Part shown: piece after piece, positions 9,757-25,678 of the stretch
Layout of the letters: every line of letters begins with the position of its first letter
Numbering within the stretch: position 1 is the stretch's first letter
DNA from: Hyphomicrobium sp. CS1GBMeth3
Lineage (GTDB): Bacteria; Pseudomonadota; Alphaproteobacteria; Rhizobiales; Hyphomicrobiaceae
Assembly (NCBI RefSeq): GCF_900117455.1
Contig: NZ_FPHO01000003.1
Span: 1,206,501-1,270,500 of the forward strand
Length of the DNA: 64,000 nucleotides
Reading direction: 5' to 3'
Translations under genes and position numbers: made by a program
The notes under the pieces: generated by a model
What the model saw: only the letters and a program-made list of their open reading frames with translations
What the model was told of the DNA's origin: nothing
Databases searched by the model: none

Positions 9757-10401
9757 TCAGCTCCGAAACAGCACAGCGTCCGCGATGTGATCGAGCACGG
9801 CGTCGACACCGTCTCCGGTCGCGCAGTTGGTCACGAGCACGGCGCGATCGCTCCTGACAGCACGCGCCTCTTCGACCATGCGATCAAGATCGACACGGAC
9901 GTAAGGGGCGAGATCCGCTTTATTGATCACCAGAAGATCGCATTGCAGGACGCCAAGCCCGCGCTTGCGCGGAATGTCGTCGCCACCCGCCACATCGATG
10001 ACAAAGAGCCAGTGATCAACCAGATCGAGAGAGAATGACGATGCCAAGTTGTCGCCGCCGCTTTCGATCAACACGAGCTCTGCGCCCGGGAACTCGAGTT
10101 GCAGCTCATCAGCCGCTTGCATATTGAGGCTCGGATCTTCACGGATCGCCGTATGCGGACAGGCCCCCGTCTCCACGGCGACAACGCGGGCCGGATCGAT
10201 GAGACCGCTGCGTTTCAGGCGCTCGGCATCTTCGCGCGTCACGAGATCGTTGGTGATGACCACGAGGTCGATGCCTCGCTCAATCACACGCGGAATGAGC
10301 TGCTCGACCAGCGCTGTCTTGCCGGAGCCCACGGGACCGCCGATGCCGACGCGCGCCGCCCCGATCGATTTTGCTGGAGACGCTGGGGACGGCACGGTCA
10401 T
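9757..10401 (-). CDS. ureG: Urease accessory GTPase UreG
   Basis: 214 residues. SIMIBI-class GTPase with P-loop GGPVGSGKT, the CPH metal-binding motif (TGACPHTAI) that binds nickel between two protomers, the ESGGDNL switch element, and NKADL for guanine recognition. UreG carries Ni2+ and couples GTP hydrolysis to its insertion into urease. The start overlaps the ureC stop by 4 nt. The N-terminus is short and lacks the His-rich stretch found in some UreG proteins. Confidence 0.95.
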
Positions 10402-12110
10402 CGCATCATGTACCGCTGCGAGAGCGGCACCTTCCTTGCTGGCTGGCAGGTTGCGAGATCTCCGTCGACAAAGACGTCGAACGTCTGCGGGTTAACGGTG
10501 ATCGTCGGACAGGCGTCGTTGCGCAACATGTCCGCCTTGCCGAGCTTGCGCGTGTTCCTGACGGGCAGCAGCCTTTTTGTGAGGTCGAGCTTGCCGGAAA
10601 CACCCGCATCGACCGCAGCCTGAGACACGAAGTTGACGCCGAGCGCCTTCTTGGCTTCTCCGAACGCGCCCCACTGCGGACGCATCGCCAGCGGCTCGCA
10701 CGTCATCAGCGATGCCGCGCTGTCGCCCATCGCCGACCAGACGATGAATCCGCTCTTGATCACCAACTCGGGCTTGATGCCGAAGAAGCCCGGGCGCCAA
10801 AGCACGATATCGCCGAGCTTCCCCGCTTCCAGCGAACCCACATGATCCGCGATACCGAACGTGATGGCCGCGTTGATCGTGTATTTTGCGATGTACCGAA
10901 GGATGCGCTGATTGTCGCCGATACGGCTCGTCTCCTCCGAAAAACGCCCGCGCTGGTCTTTCATTTTGGAGGCAAGCTGCCACGTCCGGCATATCACCTC
11001 GTTGATCCGCCCCATGCCTTGACTGTCGGAGCCGAGCATCGAGATGGCACCGATATCGTGAAGCACATCCTCGGCAGCGATCGTCTGCGCGCGAATGCGG
11101 CTCTCGGCAAACGCGACGTCCTCCGGCACCTTGGGATTGAGGTGATGACACACCATGATCATGTCGAGGTGCTCATCGAACGTGTTGATGGTGTAGGGGT
11201 TGGTCGGATTCGTCGACGACGGCAGACAATATTGCTCGCCAGCAACGCGGATAATGTCGGGCGCGTGCCCACCGCCGGCCCCTTCGGTGTGATACATATG
11301 GATCGTGCGATTCTTGATGGCCGCGAGCGTATCTTCCAGAAAGCCGCTCTCGTTCAGTGTGTCGGTATGGATCTGCACCTGCACATCGTAGTCGTCGGCC
11401 ACCGACAGGCACGTGTCGATGGTAGCAGGCATCGTGCCCCAGTCCTCGTGCAGCTTGAGCCCCATCACGCCGCCCGCAATCTGATCGACGATCGAAGCGG
11501 GTTTCGAGGTATTGCCTCGGCCCAGGAAGCCGAAATTGAGCGGCCAGGCTTCCGAGGCCTGCAGCATCTTCCCGACATTCCAGGCACCGCCGCAATCGAT
11601 GCCGACGGTAATCGGACCAAGAGAACCGCCAATCATAGTCGTGATACCGCTCGCGAGCGCATGCTCGCACAGCTGCGCACTGTCGAAGTGCACGTGAACG
11701 TCAATACCGCCGGGTGTGGCGATCAAACCTTCCGCATCACGGACAGTCGTAGCCGCTCCGCAGATCAGATCCGGGTGCACGTTGTCCATGATCGCAGGGT
11801 TGCCGGCCTTACCGATGCCGACAATCCGGCCCTCCTTGATCCCGATGTCTCCTTTGACGATCCCAAGGACAGGATCGATCACGACAGCGTTGGAAATGAG
11901 CATGTCGAGAGAACCCGCCGCACTATCGAGGCCAGGGACAAGCCCAAGTCCGTCGCGCAACGTCTTGCCGCCGCCGTGCAGGCATTCGTCGCCATAGACG
12001 GCATAATCGTGCTCGATCTCGGCGACGAGGGACGTATCGCCGAGGCGCACCGCATCTCCGGTCGTAGGACCGTAAAGCGTGGCGTATTCGCGGCGCGTCA
12101 TCTTGGCCAT
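10398..12110 (-). CDS. ureC: Urease alpha subunit UreC
   Basis: 570 residues, full length. All nickel ligands are visible: His139 and His141 (GGIDVHVHF), the carbamylated Lys219 ([10 protein letters not shown]), His248 and His274, and the aspartate in [10 protein letters not shown]. The mobile-flap Cys321-His322 is in MVCHHL. It hydrolyses urea to ammonia and carbamate. The sequence is a divergent urease: the segment after HVHF reads [13 protein letters not shown] rather than the usual ICPQQ-type sequence. Such second-type ureases, with a fused gamma-beta subunit, occur in Brucella (ure-2) and methylotrophs. A 585-codon antisense frame over this gene is a composition shadow. Confidence 0.96.
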
Positions 12111-15020: not shown

Positions 15021-15311
15021 TCAGCAGCCGGGCATCCTCTTGAAGAGGAAAATACTGGCGCCCCGCGTCGCGCTTTCTGCGACCGGCACGTGCAGCTGCT
15101 CCGTCAGGTATCGGAAGACGATATGGGCGGCGTTCGGCGACAGCGCGGGCTTCCAGACCCAAATGTCCCGCTCGCGGTCTACGCCTTCGCGCTCGAACAT
15201 CGCGGTTTGAGCGTCGACCGCACAGCCGACACACCATTCTTCGGGGCGTCCGCCAAACTCCTTGATGTAGCTCAGGAGCTCGAACTTGATCTGCTGCGGG
15301 CTGAAGACCAT
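15021..15311 (-). CDS. Small CxxC protein of unknown function in the dimethylformamidase operon
   Basis: 96 residues; I do not recognise the family. A CxxC pair lies at Cys27 and Cys30 (EEWCVGC), and the chain ends in a further cysteine (RMPGC). It is charged and soluble, with no signal peptide. It begins 6 nt after the stop of the Sel1-repeat gene and is the last gene of the block that starts with the amide transporter. The CxxC pair would suit metal or redox chemistry, and its neighbour at 16022-17116 also carries a new cysteine set, so a role in maturing the iron enzyme dimethylformamidase is possible but unproven. Confidence 0.6.
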   Translation of the reverse strand: MVFSPQQIKFELLSYIKEFGGRPEEWCVGCAVDAQTAMFEREGVDRERDIWVWKPALSPNAAHIVFRYLTEQLHVPVAESATRGASIFLFKRMPGC

Positions 15312-15317
15312 CGCGCG

Positions 15318-16016
15318 TCACGCCGGCTTGGGGTGAAGGCGAGCGTGGCTCGACGCGTCCGGTGTGCGCGAGCGCCAAGCCTCCACCGCCGCGGCGCCTC
15401 GGCACTTTTCGTCCGCGGACATCTGGGAGACGATCGCCTCGAGCGCACTTAACGCAGTTCCAACTCCGTGCTGCGCGGCGAGTGACAGCCAGACATAGGC
15501 TTCGACGCGATCCTGCTTCACGCCGATGCCGTTGGCGTAAAAATATCCGAGCCGCGCTTGCGAGGGGTAGTGGCCCGCTTCTGCAGCCACACGATACCAC
15601 TTGACTGCAAGCTCCTGATTGCCAGGAATCCCTTCGCCTTTCGAGTACAGCGTCGCGAGATTGTATTGCGCAAACAGATCGCCCTGCTCGGACGCCTTGG
15701 TCAGCCAGATGACCCCCTCGGCCTCATCGCGCGGCGCGCCCTGCCCCATCGCGAGCATCGCGCCGAGATTTGTTTGCGCCAGCACGTTTCCCGCCTCCGC
15801 GCTCTCGCGATAGAGCTCGACAGCCTTCGACAGCGACGCTGCGACGCCCTCGCCATTGGCATACATGGCGGCAAGCCAAGCTTTGGCATCAACGTCACCC
15901 TGCTCGGCCAGCTCGCAGAACAATCCGAACGCTTCGACGAATTCGCCACGTGCGTAAACCTCGACCGCATCGGAGAGCGCGGATGTTGCGTCGACGGTCA
16001 AATTCAAAGAGAGCAT
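15318..16016 (-). CDS. Sel1-repeat (TPR-like) protein
   Basis: 232 residues from ATG 16016, which has GGAGG about 9 nt upstream; an upstream start would overlap the preceding gene. At least four Sel1-like repeats are visible between residues about 40 and 195 (AKAWLAAMYANGEGVAASLSKAVELY, AQTNLGAMLAMGQG, AQYNLATLYSKGEG, SQARLGYFYANGIG). Such solenoids bind partner proteins. No signal peptide is evident. The gene is 5 nt downstream of the Rieske-like gene and 6 nt upstream of the CxxC protein, so it probably works with them, perhaps as a scaffold for enzyme assembly. Confidence 0.8.
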   Translation of the reverse strand: MLSLNLTVDATSALSDAVEVYARGEFVEAFGLFCELAEQGDVDAKAWLAAMYANGEGVAASLSKAVELYRESAEAGNVLAQTNLGAMLAMGQGAPRDEAEGVIWLTKASEQGDLFAQYNLATLYSKGEGIPGNQELAVKWYRVAAEAGHYPSQARLGYFYANGIGVKQDRVEAYVWLSLAAQHGVGTALSALEAIVSQMSADEKCRGAAAVEAWRSRTPDASSHARLHPKPA

Positions 16017-16021
16017 CTCGG

Positions 16022-17116
16022 TCAACCTCCGGCGTGCTGAAAGATGGGCTGCGGAAAATGTCCGTTCGACACCTGCACCGCCCGGCGGGCGAGCAAGCGC
16101 TGCATCCACAGTCCTTGAGGACTGGCTTGCAGCGGAAGCGCAGCGCCTTTGGTCTCAGGACGAAAGTTCGTCCCCCAACGCACCGTCGCGTGATGATCTG
16201 CTGCCGCATTCGCCGCGCGACGCCCGATCTCCCGGGACCAGAAGGCGGAAGAGGTTTCGCCCGCCGTCCCGTAGACGAAGTAGCGGCAAAGCGTTTGGCC
16301 GATCGCCGTGTGCTGCAGGACGATGGCGCAAGTCACGCGCTCCGCGCGGATCAGAACGAGATTGGGAAACAACCAGGCGACGTCAGCCGACCGCCCGTCG
16401 ACAGAGCTGCGAGCGAGGAGCCACGACCCATCGTCGCTTTCGGACATCGTTTCGCCCGCCGCGAGGTGCTGGCCAAGAAGCTTCCAGTTCGCAGGAAATT
16501 CCAGTTTTCCCGCTGCTGCGCGGTGCGCCGAACCTTCGAAAAAGCGCCCCGCTCGATTGAGCTCCGCCAACGCCACGCCGTTCGGAACCGGCTGGAGATC
16601 GAGATTGACGAAGATAAGCGGACCGAAGGTATCGGCATGAGCCGTCAGCAACCGCTCCGGCCGGAGGCCGAGATACTGTTGCATCTCGGGCGTATCGTCG
16701 CCGAGGTCGCGTGCGGGAATGGCATCGCGATCCCGGCTGTAGCCGCACGACGTAAAAGAACATTTGGTCTTCTTGCCCGTCTGGCATTGCTGCGGAATCG
16801 CACGGCAGCCGCCGTGCTGCGCTTTGTTGAAGCGCGCTTTGAACGCACCGCCTACGCGTTGCACATGGATGCCGTGGATACCGACGGTAAACGGCAGAAG
16901 GTCTCCCTCTTCGGCAATCTCATCCGAGCAGCCGACGGCTGTCCAATCCCGCGTCCAGATCATCTCGTCTTCAAGCAGACTGAATTGGAGTGAGCGGAAT
17001 GCAGTTGGCGGCAATACACGAGCCTCGCCAAAGCTGCCAAGTGCTTTGGCATAGAAATCGATGCTCGAAAGATCCTGGCCTTCGTCATAGAAGCCGAGAT
17101 CGGGCCGATGAAGCAT
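16022..17116 (-). CDS. Rieske-oxygenase-like protein with lost Rieske ligands and a new cysteine set
   Basis: 364 residues, frame intact. The layout follows ring-hydroxylating oxygenase alpha subunits: an N-terminal WTRDWTAVGCSDEIAEEGD segment, a Rieske-like region, an FGPLIFVNLD strand, then FPANWKLLGQHLA. The standard CxH...CxxH iron-sulfur motif is broken: the first cysteine is Ala99, its histidine partner remains (His101), and the second histidine is replaced. Instead four cysteines appear at 104, 111, 119 and 124. The mononuclear-iron histidines that normally follow NWK are also absent. It is thus unlikely to be an oxygenase, but may bind another metal. It lies between dmfA2 and the Sel1-repeat gene on the same strand, suggesting an accessory role to dimethylformamidase. 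Confidence 0.65.
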   Translation of the reverse strand: MLHRPDLGFYDEGQDLSSIDFYAKALGSFGEARVLPPTAFRSLQFSLLEDEMIWTRDWTAVGCSDEIAEEGDLLPFTVGIHGIHVQRVGGAFKARFNKAQHGGCRAIPQQCQTGKKTKCSFTSCGYSRDRDAIPARDLGDDTPEMQQYLGLRPERLLTAHADTFGPLIFVNLDLQPVPNGVALAELNRAGRFFEGSAHRAAAGKLEFPANWKLLGQHLAAGETMSESDDGSWLLARSSVDGRSADVAWLFPNLVLIRAERVTCAIVLQHTAIGQTLCRYFVYGTAGETSSAFWSREIGRRAANAAADHHATVRWGTNFRPETKGAALPLQASPQGLWMQRLLARRAVQVSNGHFPQPIFQHAGG

Positions 17117-17163: not shown

Positions 17164-17195
17164 ATGGTGCCCACGGAGAGATCCGTGGGCACCAT
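17164..17195 (-). terminator. Strong stem-loop downstream of dmfA2
   Basis: A perfect 13-bp stem (ATGGTGCCCACGG at 17164-17176, complement at 17183-17195) with a 6-nt loop follows the dmfA2 stop on the minus strand. No U-run follows it, so it may be a leaky terminator or a 3'-end stabiliser that makes dimethylformamidase mRNA more abundant than the downstream Rieske-like, Sel1 and CxxC genes. Confidence 0.55.
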
Positions 17196-17210: not shown

Positions 17211-19610
17211 TCAGCTTTGAGAGGCAAGGGCCGGGGATTCGTAATCCGCGCGTCCGCGATGCTTGACCGCATCCGCCGGCGGAGGCGGCAGCGGGCCGTC
17301 CTTCGAGAAGCGATCGAGAACGTTTTTCACGAGGCGCGATACGTTGTTCTGGCCGTTGTTCCACGGCAGAGAGCCGCAGAAAGCGATCGACGAGAACGCG
17401 AAGCACGCACCGCCATTCGGCGTCTCGTGGAAGGCAACATCGCCACGTACGCGTGGATGCGTGGTGCCGTCGAGGCCCTGCTGGTTGAAGCCGAAGTCCT
17501 CCATGACGAGGAGATAGGCTTCCGTGTGCCGTCCGGCCGACGTCGCCACCGCAAGCGTGTGCGGCGGTGAGCCGAGCGTGACATCGACGATGTCGAGTTC
17601 GAGGCCCGCGCAACCGCCGCCGACAAGACCGAAGTTGCCAATCGGCTCGTCATAGGTGATGCCCTCGAAAGCCCAGGCCACGCGAGGATCAAGGCTGTCC
17701 GGAGTGCGGCTGTAGTAGGTCGAGACGTCGAAGCCTTCGTTCGTCATGCCGACGCCCGCGACCGAGTAGAGCGATCGACCGCGGTAGCGCCACATGCCAC
17801 CAAGCTCACCGGTGCCCTGGTGGTAGTACTCGCCCGGCTCCGCGCGCCAGGTGCGGATGCCGGACTCGCAACGGCGCATCTCCGTGACGACACCACGGCC
17901 GAGCTTGTCGTAAGCCGGATGGAAGGAGTGGACCCAGTACCAGGCGTCCGCACCCATGTACATCAGGCGTCCGCCGCGCTGCGTGTAGTTGTGCAGCGCG
18001 TCCAGCTGCGTGCCCGAATTATGCTCCGGGTGCGAGCCGGTGATGATGACGTTGTAGTTCTCGAGTCGCGCAAGCCCGTCATACGTGACGTCCTCGTCGG
18101 TGATGACATCATACTCGTAGCCCATCGTCTCCAGCCAGTAGATCAGATGGAGATCGGCGGGATACTGCCACGGCGCCTGCGCGAGGAAGTGATCGTATTT
18201 CGGCCGGATCGAGAGGATCGGACGCAGCCGCGATGAGAGGCAAATGCCCGAACCGTCGGTGTGCGTGTCGTAGATCGAGCCGCCATACTCGCGATGCTCG
18301 GCCAGGAACATGTTCTGGTGCTGCATGATCGGCACGCGGTAGACGAACAGCTCCGCGCCGCCAGCGTTGCACGCCACATGCTCGTTGGCATACGCCATGT
18401 AGCTGATGGTCGGCACCATGACGGCGATCTTGGATTGCTCCTGGCCGATTTTCGGAACGACCCAGAACGGGATGTAATCCTCATCGCCTTCTGTGGTCGT
18501 GAGCTTCAGCGCGTAGAAGCGGCTCTTGATACCGTCGGCCGGAACGTCCCACTCGACATCGACCTCCCAGCGGGCATTGTCGACATCGTCGTCATGGAAG
18601 TGGATCGCGCCGTATTCCTTCTTCGCATACTTCCAATCGAAGTTCTGACCGCACCAGTTATAGCCCGTCAGAGCACGTGTCGGACAATTGACCAACTGAG
18701 CGTCGAAGCGATACGGCCCGTTGTCTTTGGCCGTGATGGTGTCGATGCCATCCCAGAAATCCCACGCGGCGACGATGGCTTCAGACAGCGCACCTGTCGG
18801 ACCGGAGTTGCGACGCTCGGTCAGACCCGGCTGTGCACCACCCTTCATCTGCTCGATCTCGAAGCGATTGAGAGCCTTGTTGCAGATACGCGGACTATCG
18901 ATCTTGCCGTTGTATTTGCCGGTGAACCACACACCTGCGGGCAGCGAGGACTTGCCCAGTGGATCGTCGTCGATCTTGTCGACGTAGGCCGCGAGCGCGA
19001 CGGGAGCAGCGGTGTTAATGACCTTGGTGTTGATCGCGGTCTTGACCGGCTCGATCACGGGATCAAGCGCGTAGACGATCTGCGGCTCATGGTAGAGCAC
19101 CACTTCACCCGTTGCAGCATCGAAGCTCGCGGCGACGAAATGCCAGGCGTGGTCGCGGATCGGAACGCCGGTCGTAATCTTGTGCTCGTTGATGCGCAGC
19201 TCGACGAAGCCCTCTTCGCTGATGAAGAGGCCGTAACCTTTTCCGTTCATCCACTTGGTCACAAGCCCCTGGGCGCCGTGCTTCCAGTAGCGCGGGTGTG
19301 TCTTCGGCGTTGTCGGCCAGATCCAGCATTGAAGCGTGAAGCTATCGACGTGGAGCTGCGGAGCGTCCGCGACGTACCCGTATGATCCGCCATGAATGAT
19401 CTGCTTGCGGCCCTTGTAGACGCCAGCCACCGTCGCATCGATCGGCTTCTCGATGAAGCCCGGGCCGCGAGGGTTGGTGTCGCCGTGGATCATCTGAACG
19501 ACCTCGGCCTTGAATTCCGACGGGCCATCGCAATTGATGTAGAATTTGATCTTATCGCCGGGGTGAACGCCAAACTTGTCCGCGTATCCCGTAAGCCTCA
19601 TGGCACACAT
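17211..19610 (-). CDS. dmfA2: N,N-dimethylformamidase large subunit
   Basis: 799 residues. Residues about 80-230 form a concanavalin/LamG-like domain (VDSFTLQCWIWPTTP, GLVTKWMNGKGYGLFISEEG), followed by the large C-terminal domain special to dimethylformamidase (MVPTISYMAYANEH, YWLETMGYEYDVITDEDVTY, ITGSHPEHNSGTQLDAL, GEYYHQGTGELGGMWRYRG). The Paracoccus enzyme is a mononuclear iron amidohydrolase with a two-tyrosine, one-carboxylate site, and tyrosine- and glutamate-rich segments of that kind are kept here. It hydrolyses dimethylformamide to dimethylamine and formate, both growth substrates for a methylotroph. Start ATG 19610 with GGAG 6 nt upstream. The small subunit gene lies 130 bp upstream and an ABC transporter before that. 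The true substrate could be another formamide. Confidence 0.85.
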   Translation of the reverse strand: MCAMRLTGYADKFGVHPGDKIKFYINCDGPSEFKAEVVQMIHGDTNPRGPGFIEKPIDATVAGVYKGRKQIIHGGSYGYVADAPQLHVDSFTLQCWIWPTTPKTHPRYWKHGAQGLVTKWMNGKGYGLFISEEGFVELRINEHKITTGVPIRDHAWHFVAASFDAATGEVVLYHEPQIVYALDPVIEPVKTAINTKVINTAAPVALAAYVDKIDDDPLGKSSLPAGVWFTGKYNGKIDSPRICNKALNRFEIEQMKGGAQPGLTERRNSGPTGALSEAIVAAWDFWDGIDTITAKDNGPYRFDAQLVNCPTRALTGYNWCGQNFDWKYAKKEYGAIHFHDDDVDNARWEVDVEWDVPADGIKSRFYALKLTTTEGDEDYIPFWVVPKIGQEQSKIAVMVPTISYMAYANEHVACNAGGAELFVYRVPIMQHQNMFLAEHREYGGSIYDTHTDGSGICLSSRLRPILSIRPKYDHFLAQAPWQYPADLHLIYWLETMGYEYDVITDEDVTYDGLARLENYNVIITGSHPEHNSGTQLDALHNYTQRGGRLMYMGADAWYWVHSFHPAYDKLGRGVVTEMRRCESGIRTWRAEPGEYYHQGTGELGGMWRYRGRSLYSVAGVGMTNEGFDVSTYYSRTPDSLDPRVAWAFEGITYDEPIGNFGLVGGGCAGLELDIVDVTLGSPPHTLAVATSAGRHTEAYLLVMEDFGFNQQGLDGTTHPRVRGDVAFHETPNGGACFAFSSIAFCGSLPWNNGQNNVSRLVKNVLDRFSKDGPLPPPPADAVKHRGRADYESPALASQS

Positions 19611-19740: not shown

Positions 19741-20181
19741 TCAGGTCACCGGCCAATTGTCGTCCCGGCGCTTCCATCCATCATGGTAGTGCTCGGGCAT
19801 GCCGGCCGTTTCGGGCAGCTCGTCCAGACGCATCAAAAAGATGTCGTGCTGGATCTCCTGCTCGTCCGTGTAGACCTTGTCGTTGACGAACACGGGCGGC
19901 ACGCCGCGGATTCCGGAAAGACGCCCGATGCGCCACTCCTTGTCGACCTTGGTGCAGATGACGATGAGTTTGCCCTTCGGCGACTCGCCTCGCATACGCA
20001 GCAGCACACGACGCAACAGCGGATATTCGTGAACGCCGCCGCTTAAGACCGTGGTATCGCCAGGCGTCTCGCACTTCAGCACCGAAAACCCGGCGACGCC
20101 CTTCATGGACTCGACGCATTCCCAGTGCTGGCGGATGAGCTCTTCCCGCTCCGGCGTACCTTTTTTCGGAATTGAGATCAT
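19741..20181 (-). CDS. dmfA1: N,N-dimethylformamidase small subunit
   Basis: 146 residues from ATG 20181, supported by GGAGG about 4 nt upstream. The pattern GKLIVICTKVDKEWRIGRL followed by a VYTDEQEIQHDIFLMRLDEL helix corresponds to the small-subunit pattern (strand, EW..R, then acidic helix with FL.R). The length is close to the roughly 130 residues known. In characterised enzymes small and large subunits form an (alpha-beta) assembly. It stands directly before dmfA2, as expected. A CACGTC/GACGTG hairpin lies in the gap between the two genes. Confidence 0.75.
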   Translation of the reverse strand: MISIPKKGTPEREELIRQHWECVESMKGVAGFSVLKCETPGDTTVLSGGVHEYPLLRRVLLRMRGESPKGKLIVICTKVDKEWRIGRLSGIRGVPPVFVNDKVYTDEQEIQHDIFLMRLDELPETAGMPEHYHDGWKRRDDNWPVT

Positions 20182-20280: not shown

Positions 20281-20985
20281 CTAGATCGTCATGTGCCGCT
20301 CAACGAGTTCGTCAGTCATTTCCGAGATGGGGCCGCGAGCGACGACGCGACCGTTATCAACCATCACGAACGCATCTCCGAGCTTTCGCGCGACCTTGAT
20401 ATGCTGCTCCGTCAGGATCAGGCTGATGCCGAGATCCCGGTTCAGCATCTTCAGGATCTCGCCGATCTCGTGCACGATGTTCGGCTGAATGCCTTCGGTC
20501 GGCTCGTCGAGGAGGAGAATCTGCGGATCGACCGCAAGGGCCCGCGCGATGGCAAGCTGCTGCTTCTGGCCGCCTGATAGCAAGCCAGCGCGTCGATCAA
20601 GGTTCTCGCGGAGATACGGAAAGATCCTGAGACATATGTCTGGAATCTCCGATACGTTATCGGTGCGCGCGAACGTGCCGAGCAGGATATTCTCCCGCAC
20701 CGTGAAGTCGGAGAGAATGCCGCGTCCCTGCGGCACGTAGCCGAGGCCGTAGGTGGCGCGGACGTGTGTCGGCTTGCCTACGAGCTCGTTGCCGTTGATG
20801 CTGATCGCGCCGGTCGACCTGTCGGTGAGGCCCATGATGGTGCGCATCAGCGTCGTCTTGCCGACACCGTTGCGGCCCAGAACGCAAACGCACTGGCCAT
20901 TCTTGAGCTCGAAGGAGAAGTCCCTGAGGATCGGGGTCGCGCCGTAATACGACGTGACGTTCTTGAGTTCCAGAAGGGTGCTCAT
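20281..20985 (-). CDS. urtE: Urea/short-chain amide ABC transporter ATPase UrtE
   Basis: 234 residues. LivF-like ABC ATPase with Walker A GRNGVGKTT, Q-loop region LGYVPQGRGI, signature LLSGGQKQQLAIARAL and Walker B ILLLDEPTEGIQP. Its start overlaps the urtD stop by 4 nt. It energises uptake through UrtB and UrtC in the inner membrane. The next gene on the strand is dmfA1, 100 bp on. Confidence 0.88.
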   Translation of the reverse strand: MSTLLELKNVTSYYGATPILRDFSFELKNGQCVCVLGRNGVGKTTLMRTIMGLTDRSTGAISINGNELVGKPTHVRATYGLGYVPQGRGILSDFTVRENILLGTFARTDNVSEIPDICLRIFPYLRENLDRRAGLLSGGQKQQLAIARALAVDPQILLLDEPTEGIQPNIVHEIGEILKMLNRDLGISLILTEQHIKVARKLGDAFVMVDNGRVVARGPISEMTDELVERHMTI

Positions 20986-21728
20986 GCCGCCTCCTGCTCG
21001 CCGAGATAAACATCGCGCACGCGCGGGTTCGCTTCGATCGCCGCGATACTCCCTTGAGCCAACAGCGCGCCCATATGCATAACGGTCACGACATCGGCGA
21101 TCTCACGCACGAAACCCATGTCGTGCTCGACGACGATCAACGTTGTCGTCTTCCGAAGCTCTTTGAAGACGCGCGCGGTCTTCTCTATCTCCTCTTCCGT
21201 CATGCCGGCGATCGGCTCGTCCATGAGCATGAGACGCGGCTCCTGCATCAGCACCATGCCGATCTCCAGCCATTGCGTTTCACCGTGCGACAGAATTCCG
21301 GCTCGGATGTCGAGACGCTCGGTGAGGCCAGCGATCGTCGCAACCTCGCCAAGCTTCTCCTTGAGCCCGGCCCGGCGAAACTTGAACATGTTCCACAGCG
21401 GATTTGTCTCTCGGCTGTAGGCGACCTCGAGGTTCTGCCTCACCGTCATGTCGCGAAGCACCGCCGGAACCTGGAACTTGCGCCCGATGCCGGCGCGCGC
21501 AATGAGATGCTCCTCCAGCCCCGTGATATCGGTTGAGGCGAACAGGATTTGGCCGGAGGTCGGCTTCACACGGCCCGTGATGAGGTCGATCGTTGTCGTC
21601 TTGCCGGCACCGTTCGGACCGACAAGACAGCAGATCGTCCCCTCATCAACGCTCATGCTGAAATCGTTGATCACCTTGGTGGCGTCGAAGCTCTTCGACA
21701 GGTTATGGATTTCGAGAAGCCCACTCAT
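20982..21728 (-). CDS. urtD: Urea/short-chain amide ABC transporter ATPase UrtD
   Basis: 248 residues from ATG 21728, which overlaps the urtC stop (ATGA). LivG-like ATPase with Walker A GPNGAGKTT, IGRKFQVPAVLRDMTVRQNLEVA typical of the UrtD branch, signature SHGETQWLEIGMVL (the LSHG variant also typical of UrtD), Walker B LMLMDEPIAGM and EHDMGF. The LSHGxxQWLEI form separates it from amino-acid LivG proteins and supports urea or amide as substrate. Confidence 0.88.
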   Translation of the reverse strand: MSGLLEIHNLSKSFDATKVINDFSMSVDEGTICCLVGPNGAGKTTTIDLITGRVKPTSGQILFASTDITGLEEHLIARAGIGRKFQVPAVLRDMTVRQNLEVAYSRETNPLWNMFKFRRAGLKEKLGEVATIAGLTERLDIRAGILSHGETQWLEIGMVLMQEPRLMLMDEPIAGMTEEEIEKTARVFKELRKTTTLIVVEHDMGFVREIADVVTVMHMGALLAQGSIAAIEANPRVRDVYLGEQEAA

Positions 21729-22846
21729 CGGTATGCCCCCTTCTGCTCGGCGGACACGGGCGCGACAGCGCCATAGCCCTTTCGCATTGCGCCAATCTTC
21801 GAGCTCAACAACCCGAGACCAAGCTCGACGAGGCTCGCGAGACCATTGGGAAGGAAGCGCACGACGACGATGAAGAAGCCGCCCAGAAGCAGCAGCCAGG
21901 TCGAGAGAAACGCGTCGCCGAGGTAGCTCTGCGCGCCCTGGATGATGAAGGCACCGATCATCGCGCCAAGCAGCGAGAGACGTCCGCCGATCGCTGCCCA
22001 GATCACCATGGAGATGCTGAAGCCGACATCGAGCTGCGCCGGCGACACATACTGGACAAGCAGAACCCAGCAACAGCCCGCGACCGCGGCGATCAGGCCC
22101 GAGATCGTATAGATCATGGTCTCGTAGCCGGCGACGTTGTAGCCAAGGAAGCGCACACGCTCGCTATCGTCGCGGATAGCCTGCGTGACCAATCCGAAGG
22201 AGCTTTGCGTGATAAGCTTCGCGAGCACGGTCGCCGCGCAAAGGCAGAGAAACACGATCCAGTATGCCGCCGGGCTGTAGGGATCGACTTCGTAGCCCGC
22301 AATCTGAAATGCGGACGGAGGCGTCAAGCCGTTGGCGCCACCCGTGTACGGCTGCTGGTCGAGAACGATCGTGTAGAACGCCGACAGCATGGCCAACGTC
22401 ATGATGGTGAAGAACACGCCCGACACTCGCGCGCGGAACATGGTCCCGCCGAAGAGCGCGCAAAAAAAGGTCGGAACGGCAACCGCAAGGAAGAGGCCGG
22501 CTGCGGTATTCTGAAACGGCATCCAGAGAAACGGCAGGCTGTCGAGGCCGTTGTTCAACATGAACGGCGGGATCGGATTCGAGTCCGTCTGCATCTGCAT
22601 CTGCATGGTCATTGCCATGCCGTAAGCGCCAAGCCCGAAGGCAATGCCTTGCCCAAGATTGAGGATGCCGCCGAAGCCCCAGCACAGGCTGATCGACAAT
22701 GCGAGCATGCCGAAGACGCCGTAGGTTGCCAGCTGATTGAGCAGGAAGGCATCCTCGACCATGAGCGGGATAGCTCCGATCGCAACGAAGAATGCCGTGT
22801 AGGTCAGCCACTGCGCCGTCTTGTTGTGGTAGATGTTGTCCATCAC
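21725..22846 (-). CDS. urtC: Urea/short-chain amide ABC transporter permease UrtC
   Basis: 373 residues, about ten hydrophobic segments, LivM-like. UrtC features include SLCWGFGGILNLGQGIAFGLGAY and the later TISGLIAAVAGCCWV and WAAIGGRLSLLGAMIGAF segments (EAA-like loop). Longer than amino-acid LivM proteins, as is usual for UrtC. It lies between urtB (34 bp upstream) and urtD (4-nt overlap). Confidence 0.88.
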   Translation of the reverse strand: MMDNIYHNKTAQWLTYTAFFVAIGAIPLMVEDAFLLNQLATYGVFGMLALSISLCWGFGGILNLGQGIAFGLGAYGMAMTMQMQMQTDSNPIPPFMLNNGLDSLPFLWMPFQNTAAGLFLAVAVPTFFCALFGGTMFRARVSGVFFTIMTLAMLSAFYTIVLDQQPYTGGANGLTPPSAFQIAGYEVDPYSPAAYWIVFLCLCAATVLAKLITQSSFGLVTQAIRDDSERVRFLGYNVAGYETMIYTISGLIAAVAGCCWVLLVQYVSPAQLDVGFSISMVIWAAIGGRLSLLGAMIGAFIIQGAQSYLGDAFLSTWLLLLGGFFIVVVRFLPNGLASLVELGLGLLSSKIGAMRKGYGAVAPVSAEQKGAYR

Positions 22847-22880: not shown

Positions 22881-23756
22881 TCATCGTCTCACGCCCCCTT
22901 GCGCGAAGAGACCCTGCGGCCTGAACCTCAGGAACACGACGATCAACACGAAGATGATGAAGCGCGCGAAGGTATCGTTGGTGAACGACGCGAACACGGA
23001 TTGCAGCTCGCCGGTCACGCCACTCGCCACGACAGTGCCCGCCAGAGACCCACCGCCGACGACCACCATCAGGAAGGCCTGCACCACGTAACTCAGACCC
23101 ATGGTCGGCAGCACGATTGCGAGCACGCCGAAGAGAGAGCCGGCAATACCGGCCAATCCGGCGCCGAGCGCGAAGGTCATCATGTAAATTCGATCGGAGT
23201 TGATCCCGAATGAGGCGGCCATCTCCTTGTTCTGCACGACAGCGCGCAGCTGAACGCCAAACCGCGTTTTGTAGAAAAGAAACCACAGCGCGAGCACCAG
23301 AAGGGCCGTGACGAGCAATATGAAGATCCGGAACGTGGATATCGACACCGGCCCGATCTCGATATTGCTCGAGAAAATCGCGGGCGCCGCAATGAACTTC
23401 GGGTCGCTACCGAAAATCAGCCGCACACCCTGCATCAGCACGAGCGAGACGCCATAGGTTGCGAGCAGCGTATCGAGCGGACGATTGTAGAGATATCGAA
23501 TGAGCCCACGCTCGATCGCGAGTCCGACCAGCGCTACGATCACGAACGATGCAGGAATGCAGAGAAGAAAGGGTAGCCCAAGGTAGGCCTGCAGCATGAA
23601 GGTGCTGTAGGCGCCGAGCATGATGAACTCGCCATGCGCCATGTTGATCACGCCGGCGGTGCCGTAGATGATTGTCAGACCGAGCGCCGCTATGAGCCAG
23701 ATGCTGGCGATGCTGATACCGAGGATGAGCGCATTCGGAAGCGAACCTAGATCCAT
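22881..23756 (-). CDS. urtB: Urea/short-chain amide ABC transporter permease UrtB
   Basis: 291 residues from ATG 23756, supported by AAGGA 9 nt upstream; an upstream start at 23798 would add fourteen basic residues. LivH-like permease with about eight membrane segments, the GTAGVINMAHGEFIMLGAY motif near the N-terminus and MVVVGGGSLAGTVVASGV near the C-terminus. It partners UrtC in the membrane channel. A stem-loop separates it from urtA, giving room for the binding protein to be made in excess. Confidence 0.87.
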   Translation of the reverse strand: MDLGSLPNALILGISIASIWLIAALGLTIIYGTAGVINMAHGEFIMLGAYSTFMLQAYLGLPFLLCIPASFVIVALVGLAIERGLIRYLYNRPLDTLLATYGVSLVLMQGVRLIFGSDPKFIAAPAIFSSNIEIGPVSISTFRIFILLVTALLVLALWFLFYKTRFGVQLRAVVQNKEMAASFGINSDRIYMMTFALGAGLAGIAGSLFGVLAIVLPTMGLSYVVQAFLMVVVGGGSLAGTVVASGVTGELQSVFASFTNDTFARFIIFVLIVVFLRFRPQGLFAQGGVRR

Positions 23757-23847
23757 TGCAATTTTTTCCTTGCGGACAGAGCGCAGTCGGCCGCTCATCC
23801 GCCACCCTCGGCAGAGTCTGCATTCAGCTCGGCTCAGCTCGATGGAA

Positions 23848-23888: not shown

Positions 23889-25196
23889 TCAGATGACGTT
23901 CGTGCGGACCTTGCCGTCAGAGGCCTTCAAGCCATCCTTCGTGCAAGTGCCGATGTCGGGATAAATCGAGTAGGGATCCGGAGCGACGTGCTCTTCGGCG
24001 GACTTCACGATCTTGAAGGTGCCGTCGGCCTGGCACTGGCCGATCTTCGGCTTCAGCCAGGTGTTGAAGTTGTTCTCGTCGATCCAGATCAGCCCTTCGG
24101 GAGACACCGCATCCTCGATGCGAATGCCGCCAGAGTGATCACGAATGGCGCGCGGCGTGACGTTCTCGACACCCACGGCGGCCGCAGCTTTCTCCAGGCC
24201 GGCCTTGAAGACGTAAGCCGAGAGGTACGTCTCTTCCATGTTGTAGTGTGTCGTGCCGTTCTTGCCGTACTTGCTCTTGAGGAAGCCCTCGACAAACTTC
24301 TGGTTTGTGGGATTGTCCAGCGTCTGGAAGTACGGCGCTGAGAGGAAATGCCCCGCTCCGAATTCTGCGCCCATCGCGCGGGTCTCGATCTCGCCAGTGG
24401 TGAGCGACGCGATCGGCATCGAGTCCACCTTGAAGCCTTCCTGCTTGAACTGCTTATGGAACGCGATATCCGACGCTCCGACGACCGTCGAGAAGATGAA
24501 GTCGGGCTTGGTGTCGCGGATTTTGTTCAGAACTGGCCCGAACTCGGAGCTGCCGAGCGGGATGTATTCCTCGCCGAGCAGTTCGCCGCCGGCCTGCTCG
24601 AGCCAGATCTTGGCGTTCTTGTTCGATTCCTTCGGCCACACGTAGTTGGAGCCGACGAAGAAAACCTTCTTGCCGAACTTCTCCACCATGAAGGGGATCA
24701 GGTCTTTCGAATGCTGGTTGGCAAGCGGACCGGTGCAGATGGTGTTCTGCGTGCACTCGGCGCCTTCGTAGCAGGTCGGATAGTACAGCAGATGATTGCG
24801 CTGCATCACCGTCGGCAGGATGGCCTTCCGGCTGGCCGACGTGTAGCAGCCAAAGAGGGCAATGACCTTCTCGCGAAGGATGAGCTCCTTGGCCTTATCC
24901 GTATAGACATTGAAGTCCGACTTTGCATCGACGATGACCGGCTCGACCGGCACACCGTTGATCCCGCCGTTCGCGTTGATCTCGTCGAAGGCGTACTGGA
25001 GCACCAGGGTGGAATCTTCCTCCGGCACAGCAAGCGCGCCGGTAAGAGAGAACAGCAGGCCGACCTTGATAGGCTCGCCCTTCTTGAGGGTCGCTCCCCA
25101 GGCCTCCTTGGAGGTCGGCAGCCACAGGTGAGGCATGCCGACTGCGGCAGATACGGCCAGAGTCGTCTTGAGAACCTTTCGGCGGGTGAAGTCCAT
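23889..25196 (-). CDS. urtA: Urea/short-chain amide ABC transporter substrate-binding protein UrtA
   Basis: 435 residues from ATG 25196. The N-terminus MDFTRRKVLKTTLAVSAAVG is a twin-arginine export signal. The mature part is a type I periplasmic-binding fold: VGLLFSLTGALAVPEEDS, FDEINANGGINGVPVEP, LFGCYTSASRKAILPTVM and YPTCYEGAECTQNT, the segments that mark the UrtA/FmdD group rather than leucine-binding proteins. It should deliver urea or short amides (possibly formamide or dimethylformamide) to UrtBC. The operon continues through urtBCDE to the dimethylformamidase genes, which favours amides; urease further on favours urea. Both may be carried. Confidence 0.87.
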   Translation of the reverse strand: MDFTRRKVLKTTLAVSAAVGMPHLWLPTSKEAWGATLKKGEPIKVGLLFSLTGALAVPEEDSTLVLQYAFDEINANGGINGVPVEPVIVDAKSDFNVYTDKAKELILREKVIALFGCYTSASRKAILPTVMQRNHLLYYPTCYEGAECTQNTICTGPLANQHSKDLIPFMVEKFGKKVFFVGSNYVWPKESNKNAKIWLEQAGGELLGEEYIPLGSSEFGPVLNKIRDTKPDFIFSTVVGASDIAFHKQFKQEGFKVDSMPIASLTTGEIETRAMGAEFGAGHFLSAPYFQTLDNPTNQKFVEGFLKSKYGKNGTTHYNMEETYLSAYVFKAGLEKAAAAVGVENVTPRAIRDHSGGIRIEDAVSPEGLIWIDENNFNTWLKPKIGQCQADGTFKIVKSAEEHVAPDPYSIYPDIGTCTKDGLKASDGKVRTNVI

Positions 25197-25678
25197 GTTG
25201 GTCAGGTCTCCCGGATGCGGAAGGGAGCGTATCGTTGCGACACGCGGCGCTAGATATTTATGCAAGGCCACACACCTCACGTCTAGACGTTTGCGTATAT
25301 TGCGACGCAGCGTCAATCGATTTTTTTGCCCAGGAGGAAAATTTATTGAGCGCCGCGAGGCACTGCTAAATTGCAGTGCAAGCGCAGCTTTTTATGCGTG
25401 CAACATGCCGCAACGAAGGGCATAATAGGTATCTAGATGAAATGCCTCGTTTAACGCGCAGCGTATGTCCGGCTGTGAACCCAACGGATGATGGATAGCA
25501 GCGAAAGTTACAATGTACCCTACATCTGGATGCCGTATCAGGCGGCGTCCCCGCCTCCAGAAGCGCAAGCGAAATGTGAATAAGACGTGTATCGCAGGAA
25601 CAGAATCAAAAATGTCGCTAGACGTAACGCATACGACAGCGCGCGTAGGGCGGTCCGAAGGGGACTGGCAGGTGAGGG
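25197..25678. promoter_or_regulatory. Divergent control region between urtA and response regulator, with CTAGA motifs
   Basis: 482 bp without a credible gene. It holds CTAGA motifs at 25250, 25283 (inside the 12-bp palindrome ACGTCTAGACGT, 25279-25290), 25433 (TCTAGATGAAAT at 25432-25443) and 25620. The copy at 25432 matches the porin-promoter copy at 14892 in 11 of 12 positions. The region is AT-richer than its surroundings and should contain promoters for both the transporter/dimethylformamidase unit and the sensory genes. Confidence 0.5.

Follow-up and report, generated by a model that had tools for sequence, protein, structure and literature searches.

A protein encoded in the genome of Hyphomicrobium sp. 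CS1GBMeth3, given the working name X, is by fold and sequence a descendant of the Rieske oxygenases that has lost ligands of both of its metal sites, and it carries instead a near-invariant set of four cysteines and one histidine (Cys4/His). The X gene lies in a stretch of 64,000 nucleotides from contig NZ_FPHO01000003.1 (positions 1,206,501 to 1,270,500), which is called the window here, and it stands beside the genes of a dimethylformamidase (DMFase)-like enzyme, dmfA1 and dmfA2 (Table 1). In every sample examined, X occurs with one branch of these enzymes only. Sequence comparisons suggest, tentatively, that X is a dedicated metal-handling factor for the assembly or repair of this one branch.

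The predicted structure of X contains both the Rieske domain and the catalytic domain of an oxygenase, and the fold spans residues 11-352. Residues of X were placed against the Rieske ligands with a profile alignment to CntA. An excerpt of the CntA report (PMC7948474) gives Cys86, His88, Cys106, and His109 as the ligands of the Rieske centre and His208, His213, and Asp323 as the ligands of the catalytic iron. The four Rieske ligands correspond, in that order, to A99, H101, C119, and T122 of X; the first cysteine and the second histidine are lost, H101 and C119 are kept in place, and the CxH...CxxH ligand pattern of a [2Fe-2S] cluster is not found in X. An earlier note on this DNA had described this loss, with Ala99 for the first cysteine and the second histidine gone, and had described a new set of cysteines and a histidine in place of the old ligands. 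The loss is borne out by the alignment, and C104, C111, and C124 are new in the sense that they are the sole members of the Cys4/His set outside the Rieske ligand positions, but H101 and C119 sit at those positions. A cysteine at the position of C104 is also present in an ordinary oxygenase (locus L118, CxHRGC...CxxH). The note had also reported that the catalytic iron histidines are missing, and this agrees with an alignment of 104 X sequences, in which no histidine or aspartate beyond residue 190 is conserved at more than 70%. E206 (96/104) is the only Asp, Glu, His, Cys, or Tyr above this level in that region, and the ligands of the catalytic iron are therefore taken to be gone. X is not classed as a Rieske oxygenase, because the cluster ligands and the catalytic iron, which are two defining features of that family, both fail. 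It is very improbable that X still holds a [2Fe-2S] cluster of the Rieske type through exchanged ligands and has some remaining oxygenase-like activity, with the amide or its product as substrate; the retained fold and the retained H101 and C119 would agree with such a protein, but no catalytic-iron ligand is conserved in the 104 sequences and no dedicated reductase is found among the recurrent neighbours examined.

Conservation in X is concentrated in the loop that holds the Cys4/His set, in the region of the former cluster loops. Invariant columns account for 18 of 35 at residues 96-130 and for 3 of 184 at residues 181-364 (104 sequences), which indicates that selection holds the loop and not the old catalytic domain. 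The relatives of X number 187 among the matches listed by two protein searches, one of which gave the best 120 of 691 homologues. C104, C111, C119, and C124 are kept in all 187 (186 by pattern and P0237 by eye), and H101 is kept in 186, with Gln in P0237. The set is also present in 78/78 locus open reading frames found by the motif AQHGG, and visual inspection showed it in L052, L073, and Paracoccus plasmid pAMI5, where that motif is absent. Residue 122 is Thr in 180, Leu in 4, Ala in 1, and Ser in 1 of the 186 proteins with the core motif, and residue 99 is Ala in 183 and Val in 3. In L052 and L073, where residue 99 is His, the Cys4/His set is retained (by eye). Residue 99 was considered as a ligand and ruled out, as it is Ala or Val in the listed relatives, His in L052 and L073, and never Cys. 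H81 and H84 are invariant in the 104 aligned sequences, and so are the residues Q100, G102, G103, R105, P108, Q110, S127, and D129 that flank the set. Cysteine-rich clusters often sense redox state, and the X gene follows the enzyme genes, a position that regulators sometimes take. X could on these grounds be a sensory or regulatory protein whose cluster responds to iron, oxygen, or redox state so as to tune the enzyme, but this is quite unlikely, because the oxygenase fold occupies residues 11-352 and a DNA-binding or signalling domain would not fit in what remains.

The association of X with its enzyme was followed in public loci, in two samples of genomes, and in a tree. The public loci are the best 80 of 108 confirmed loci (X 36-67% identical), and in all 80 a dmfA2 match (75-92% identity) lies upstream of X on the same strand; the gap from dmfA2 to the X match has a median of 84 nt and a range of 22 to 773 (81 loci). 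Both genome samples include the genome of the window. A DMFA2-like gene is present in 46 of 289 genomes of the class (E 1e-3), and the 3 genomes in which it is at least 75% identical are exactly the 3 that carry X (E <1e-130), while the 43 genomes with only distant DMFase-like enzymes have no X. Weak X matches only (1e-21 to 1e-25) were obtained in 12 other genomes of the class, and the one that was read (L118) is the ordinary oxygenase mentioned above. In the order, 41 of 199 genomes have a DMFA2-like gene (E 1e-50); exactly the 12 in which it is at least 77% identical carry X (E <1e-50), and the 29 with only distant enzymes do not. The absence of X beside distant dmfA2 genes was established from loci of about 5 kb and from genome-wide searches at E 1e-20 (class) and E 1e-50 (order). 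The branch marked by X is 69-92% identical to the large subunit of the window. In a tree of 71 large subunits, which draws on about a quarter of loci L002-L081 and comes from a quick search supported by the Shimodaira-Hasegawa-like approximate likelihood ratio test (SH-aLRT) only, with long branches among the distant rows, 34 subunits with X and 37 without X are split by one branch (SH-aLRT 100). Chance linkage of X to dmfA1A2 is ruled out by the loci, both genome samples, and the tree. The presence of X in every dimethylformamidase system is likewise ruled out, by the X-free loci of plasmids pAMI2 and pLVM1 and by the genome samples.

The earlier note had read the clustered cysteines in an intact frame as a sign of selection for a new role, and it had proposed a comparison of homologues. 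That comparison gave the four cysteines in all of the listed relatives, which also rules out a sequencing error or a pseudogene, together with an adjoining dmfA2 in 80/80 loci. The near-invariant set, the linkage to dmfA1A2 at every locus examined, and the single split in the tree give strong support to selection for a new role. The distances of X and dmfA2 are correlated over 76 loci (Pearson 0.85, Spearman 0.66), although shared ancestry alone gives such values; the median identity over these loci is 42% for X and 78% for dmfA2. This correlation and the loss of the old catalytic site would agree with X as an additional, third subunit with a structural or holding function, whose Cys4/His residues bind a structural zinc ion and so stabilise the contact between proteins. 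Such a role is unlikely, as the invariant residues flanking the set seem, in our judgement, to go beyond the needs of a structural zinc site, and a hairpin precedes the X gene.

The operon had been called a dimethylformamidase operon, and the neighbours of X are indeed DMFase-like dmfA1A2 genes, but judged by their sequences they form a divergent branch and are not the characterised DMFase. The large subunit of the window matches PF20254 (DMFA2_C) with E 2.6e-85. For the Paracoccus DMFase, excerpts of PMC7686228 name Tyr399, Tyr440, and Glu521 as the iron ligands and His519 as an essential residue, and state that Phe693 restricts substrate size. The Tyr-Tyr-Glu ligands and His519 are present in 82/82 rows of the branch and in 29/29 other enzymes. 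Among the branch rows, the gene of the window has two entries (its own and L085), and L086 and L087 are possible duplicates of L063 and L033. The position of Asn547 is Asp in 82/82 branch rows, compared with Asn in 28/29 and Asp in 1/29 of the others, and the residue after Glu521 (Y522H) is His in 82/82 branch rows versus Tyr in 29/29 others. Phe693 is kept in 82/82 branch rows versus 4/29 others, and its retention across the branch points to a small substrate. The insert of the small subunit features a cysteine pair. Both cysteines are present wherever dmfA1 was matched, in 77/77 loci (74 identified by pattern; L025, L036, and L037 by eye), and the insert is absent from 20/20 distant small subunits, which are those of pAMI2, pLVM1, and the 18 of 27 further loci with a recognisable candidate. 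The small subunit of the branch also has a longer C-terminal tail. The chemistry of the branch is perhaps other than hydrolysis of dimethylformamide (DMF), and these enzymes are perhaps not DMFases at all.

Table 1. Features of the X operon and its surroundings in the window.
Feature	Position	Strand	Remarks
X	16022..17116	-	364-aa Rieske-oxygenase-fold protein; intact frame; X is the working name for the protein of this open reading frame
X loop, codons of residues 97-130	16727..16828	-	near-invariant NxAQHGGCRxxPxQCxxGxxTxCSFTSCGYSRD
dmfA2-like large subunit (PF20254)	17211..19610	-	Y407, Y447, E529 iron ligands; catalytic H527; branch-specific D555, H530
dmfA1-like small subunit, 146 aa from ATG	19741..20181	-	insert HxxCxxSMxGVxGxxxLxCxxxGDTT
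Intercistronic hairpin	17164..17195	-	14-bp stem, TCTC loop; between dmfA2 stop and X start
Sel1-repeat protein	15318..16016	-	ATG 5 nt past X stop
Y, 96-aa conserved small protein	15021..15311	-	in 79/80 loci and pAMI5
urtE-like ABC ATPase	20281..20985	-	TIGR03410 above cut-off
urtD-like ABC ATPase	20982..21734	-	TIGR03411 above cut-off
urtC-like permease	21725..22846	-	TIGR03408 above cut-off
urtB-like permease	22881..23798	-	TIGR03409 above cut-off
urtA-like substrate-binding protein	23889..25316	-	TIGR03407 334.5 bits, below cut-off 492.75
Urease alpha gene	10398-12110	-	~4 kb from the operon

In the window, X is flanked by dmfA2 on one side and by a Sel1-repeat gene and then Y on the other, and the genes upstream of X are dmfA1, dmfA2, and those of a urea-type ATP-binding cassette (ABC) transporter. 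A Sel1 match lies downstream of X on the same strand in 79/80 loci. The model of Y is confident, with a predicted local distance difference test (pLDDT) score of 93.5, and has no convincing fold match; the invariant residues of Y are S4, Q6, Q7, E11, K17, W26, G29, W51, and K54 (53 aligned sequences). Matches to the transporter ATPases occur in 67/80 loci and matches to the binding protein, some of them weaker, in 65/80, where some public contigs stop too early for full transporter counts. In the Mesorhizobium loci L014 and L016, the permease and binding-protein matches (about 58-63% identical to those of the window) are on the strand opposite to dmfA1A2-X. The UrtA-like protein falls far under the NCBIfam cut-off for UrtA while UrtB-E pass theirs, and its substrate may be a urea-like compound other than urea. 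A urease alpha (ureC) match is present in the flanks of 18/80 loci and an AmiS/UreI gene is present on pAMI5, which together give hints that the substrate of the X-linked enzyme is a small amide or urea-like compound.

Recurrent neighbours were surveyed by clustering open reading frames of at least 70 aa from 81 loci and keeping the clusters present in at least 4 loci, among which some antisense frames remain; the clusters were named by position, by prior searches, and by 10 Pfam scans. A sarcosine oxidase alpha-like protein recurs in 5/81 loci (for example L078, 12396-15380) and an ACT-domain formyl transferase in 4/81 (for example L074, 10485-11342); a methylated C1 compound would be a fitting substrate at those loci. 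The sarcosine oxidase alpha-like protein is the sole Fe-S or flavin protein among the recurrent neighbours, and no dedicated reductase or ferredoxin is found among them.

The gap between dmfA2 and X features a hairpin. A perfect stem of at least 10 bp is found in 69/80 dmfA2-X gaps versus 25/400 dinucleotide shuffles, and for the dmfA1-dmfA2 gap the values are 7/77 versus 11/385. The arms of the hairpin vary in sequence from locus to locus (12 loci compared). Hairpins inside operons often set unequal expression, and this one would fit an accessory protein X that is needed in smaller amounts. Rieske domains are electron carriers, and X could also be a redox partner, whose rebuilt Fe-S or iron centre supplies the iron site or the cysteine pair of the small subunit with electrons or maintains their oxidation state; the branch would then carry out redox or redox-gated chemistry and not plain hydrolysis. 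His101 and Cys119 at true Rieske ligand positions, the branch-specific cysteine pair, and the extra conserved histidine in the large subunit all agree with electron transfer, and most of the evidence is common to this explanation and to that of an assembly factor. A redox partner is possible but rather doubtful, given that no dedicated reductase or ferredoxin recurs beside X and that X may be produced in smaller amounts because of the hairpin.

If X is a metal-handling assembly factor, as is tentatively preferred here, a former Rieske oxygenase alpha subunit would have come to serve a branch of DMFase-like iron amidohydrolases. The Cys4/His set would bind iron, an Fe-S cluster, or another metal, and the oxygenase-like body of X would dock on apo-DmfA1A2, perhaps helped by the Sel1 protein and Y. 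X would then load or repair the metal centre, possibly one that uses the branch-only cysteine pair of the small subunit, and it would act sub-stoichiometrically, in keeping with the hairpin. A more detailed version, in which X builds or delivers a centre made of the 2-Tyr-1-Glu iron and the small-subunit cysteine pair for an enzyme with non-DMF chemistry and a small urea-like or amide substrate, can be put forward with little confidence. There are some observations that weigh against an assembly factor. The iron ligands of dmfA2 are the same as those in enzymes without X. One X relative, the metagenome sequence P0237, is without His101. Residues 101-150 of the X model have low confidence (pLDDT blocks 65-78), and the model shows no strand of at least 3 residues from 97 to 157; the absent metal is a possible cause. 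An unaltered Rieske hairpin would presumably place C111 far from the cluster. Additionally, the intercistronic hairpin is compatible with X as a stoichiometric or regulatory partner.

A maturation or iron-delivery role had been put forward in the earlier note as a fair hypothesis, and as such it is plausible for X. X as a general requirement of dimethylformamidase is ruled out by pAMI2 and pLVM1, which have no adjoining X, and by the native-like enzyme from E. coli. According to an excerpt of PMC7686228, the enzyme of Paracoccus sp. strain DMF was obtained as a recombinant protein from E. coli with kinetics like those of the native enzyme. Because this recombinant enzyme is native-like and the canonical cluster is without X, a maturation role would not be general to dimethylformamidase.

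If the assignment is right, a DMFase-like operon contains a Rieske oxygenase that has been deprived of the ligands of its two metal sites and carries another set. The annotated dimethylformamidase family divides into the proven branch and a second one, to which accessory genes of its own belong. The second branch occurs in many genera of known methylotrophs. The tyrosine-carboxylate iron site of DMFase is called unique by its discoverers in an excerpt of PMC7686228. No description of X was found in the open PMC literature, subscription papers being outside the search. Several X relatives carry the database name ring-hydroxylating oxygenase subunit alpha, which, like the name biphenyl 2,3-dioxygenase, is misleading.

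Of the known systems, the alpha subunits of Rieske oxygenases, such as CntA of carnitine monooxygenase, stachydrine demethylase, and BphA1 of biphenyl dioxygenase, are among the closest to X, which shares their fold. Unlike these proteins, X is without the first cysteine, the second histidine, and the His-His-Asp site, has four conserved cysteines of which three are outside the Rieske ligand positions, and is linked by its gene to an amidohydrolase-like enzyme. The activators of nitrile hydratase are encoded by accessory genes that adjoin the subunits of an amide/nitrile metal hydrolase. X resembles such activators and metallochaperones of metal hydrolases in gene position, and this is an analogy only, with no shared fold claimed.

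The branch shares the 2-Tyr-1-Glu site, His519, and Phe693 with DmfA1A2 of Paracoccus sp. strain DMF (PDB 6LVB) and of P. aminophilus plasmid pAMI2, and it differs from them in the cysteine-pair insert of the small subunit, N547D, Y522H, and the attached X-Sel1-Y genes. No X or Y is found beside dmfA1A2 of pAMI2, nor beside the DMFase-like genes on plasmid pLVM1 of Methylobacterium sp. DM1, a strain that an excerpt of PMC11381386 cites as degrading DMF and bearing a DMFase. A hypothetical gene of about 263 aa lies downstream of the large subunit on both plasmids (pAMI2, L083 5258-6046; pLVM1, L084 8890-9681). The large subunit of the window is 37% identical to DmfA2 of pAMI2 and 69% identical to that of pAMI5. 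P. aminophilus harbours both kinds of locus: plasmid pAMI2, with the proven DMFase, is required for the use of DMF, and an excerpt of PMC4543880 describes the second locus, on pAMI5, as not linked to DMF utilization. The dmfA1-dmfA2 locus of pAMI5 is the same system as that of the window, with X (annotated as biphenyl 2,3-dioxygenase) and Y both present. It differs from the window in that the start of Y overlaps the end of X, so that no Sel1 gene lies between them, and in that Y is followed by an AmiS/UreI-family transporter gene, with no Urt genes in the stretch seen.
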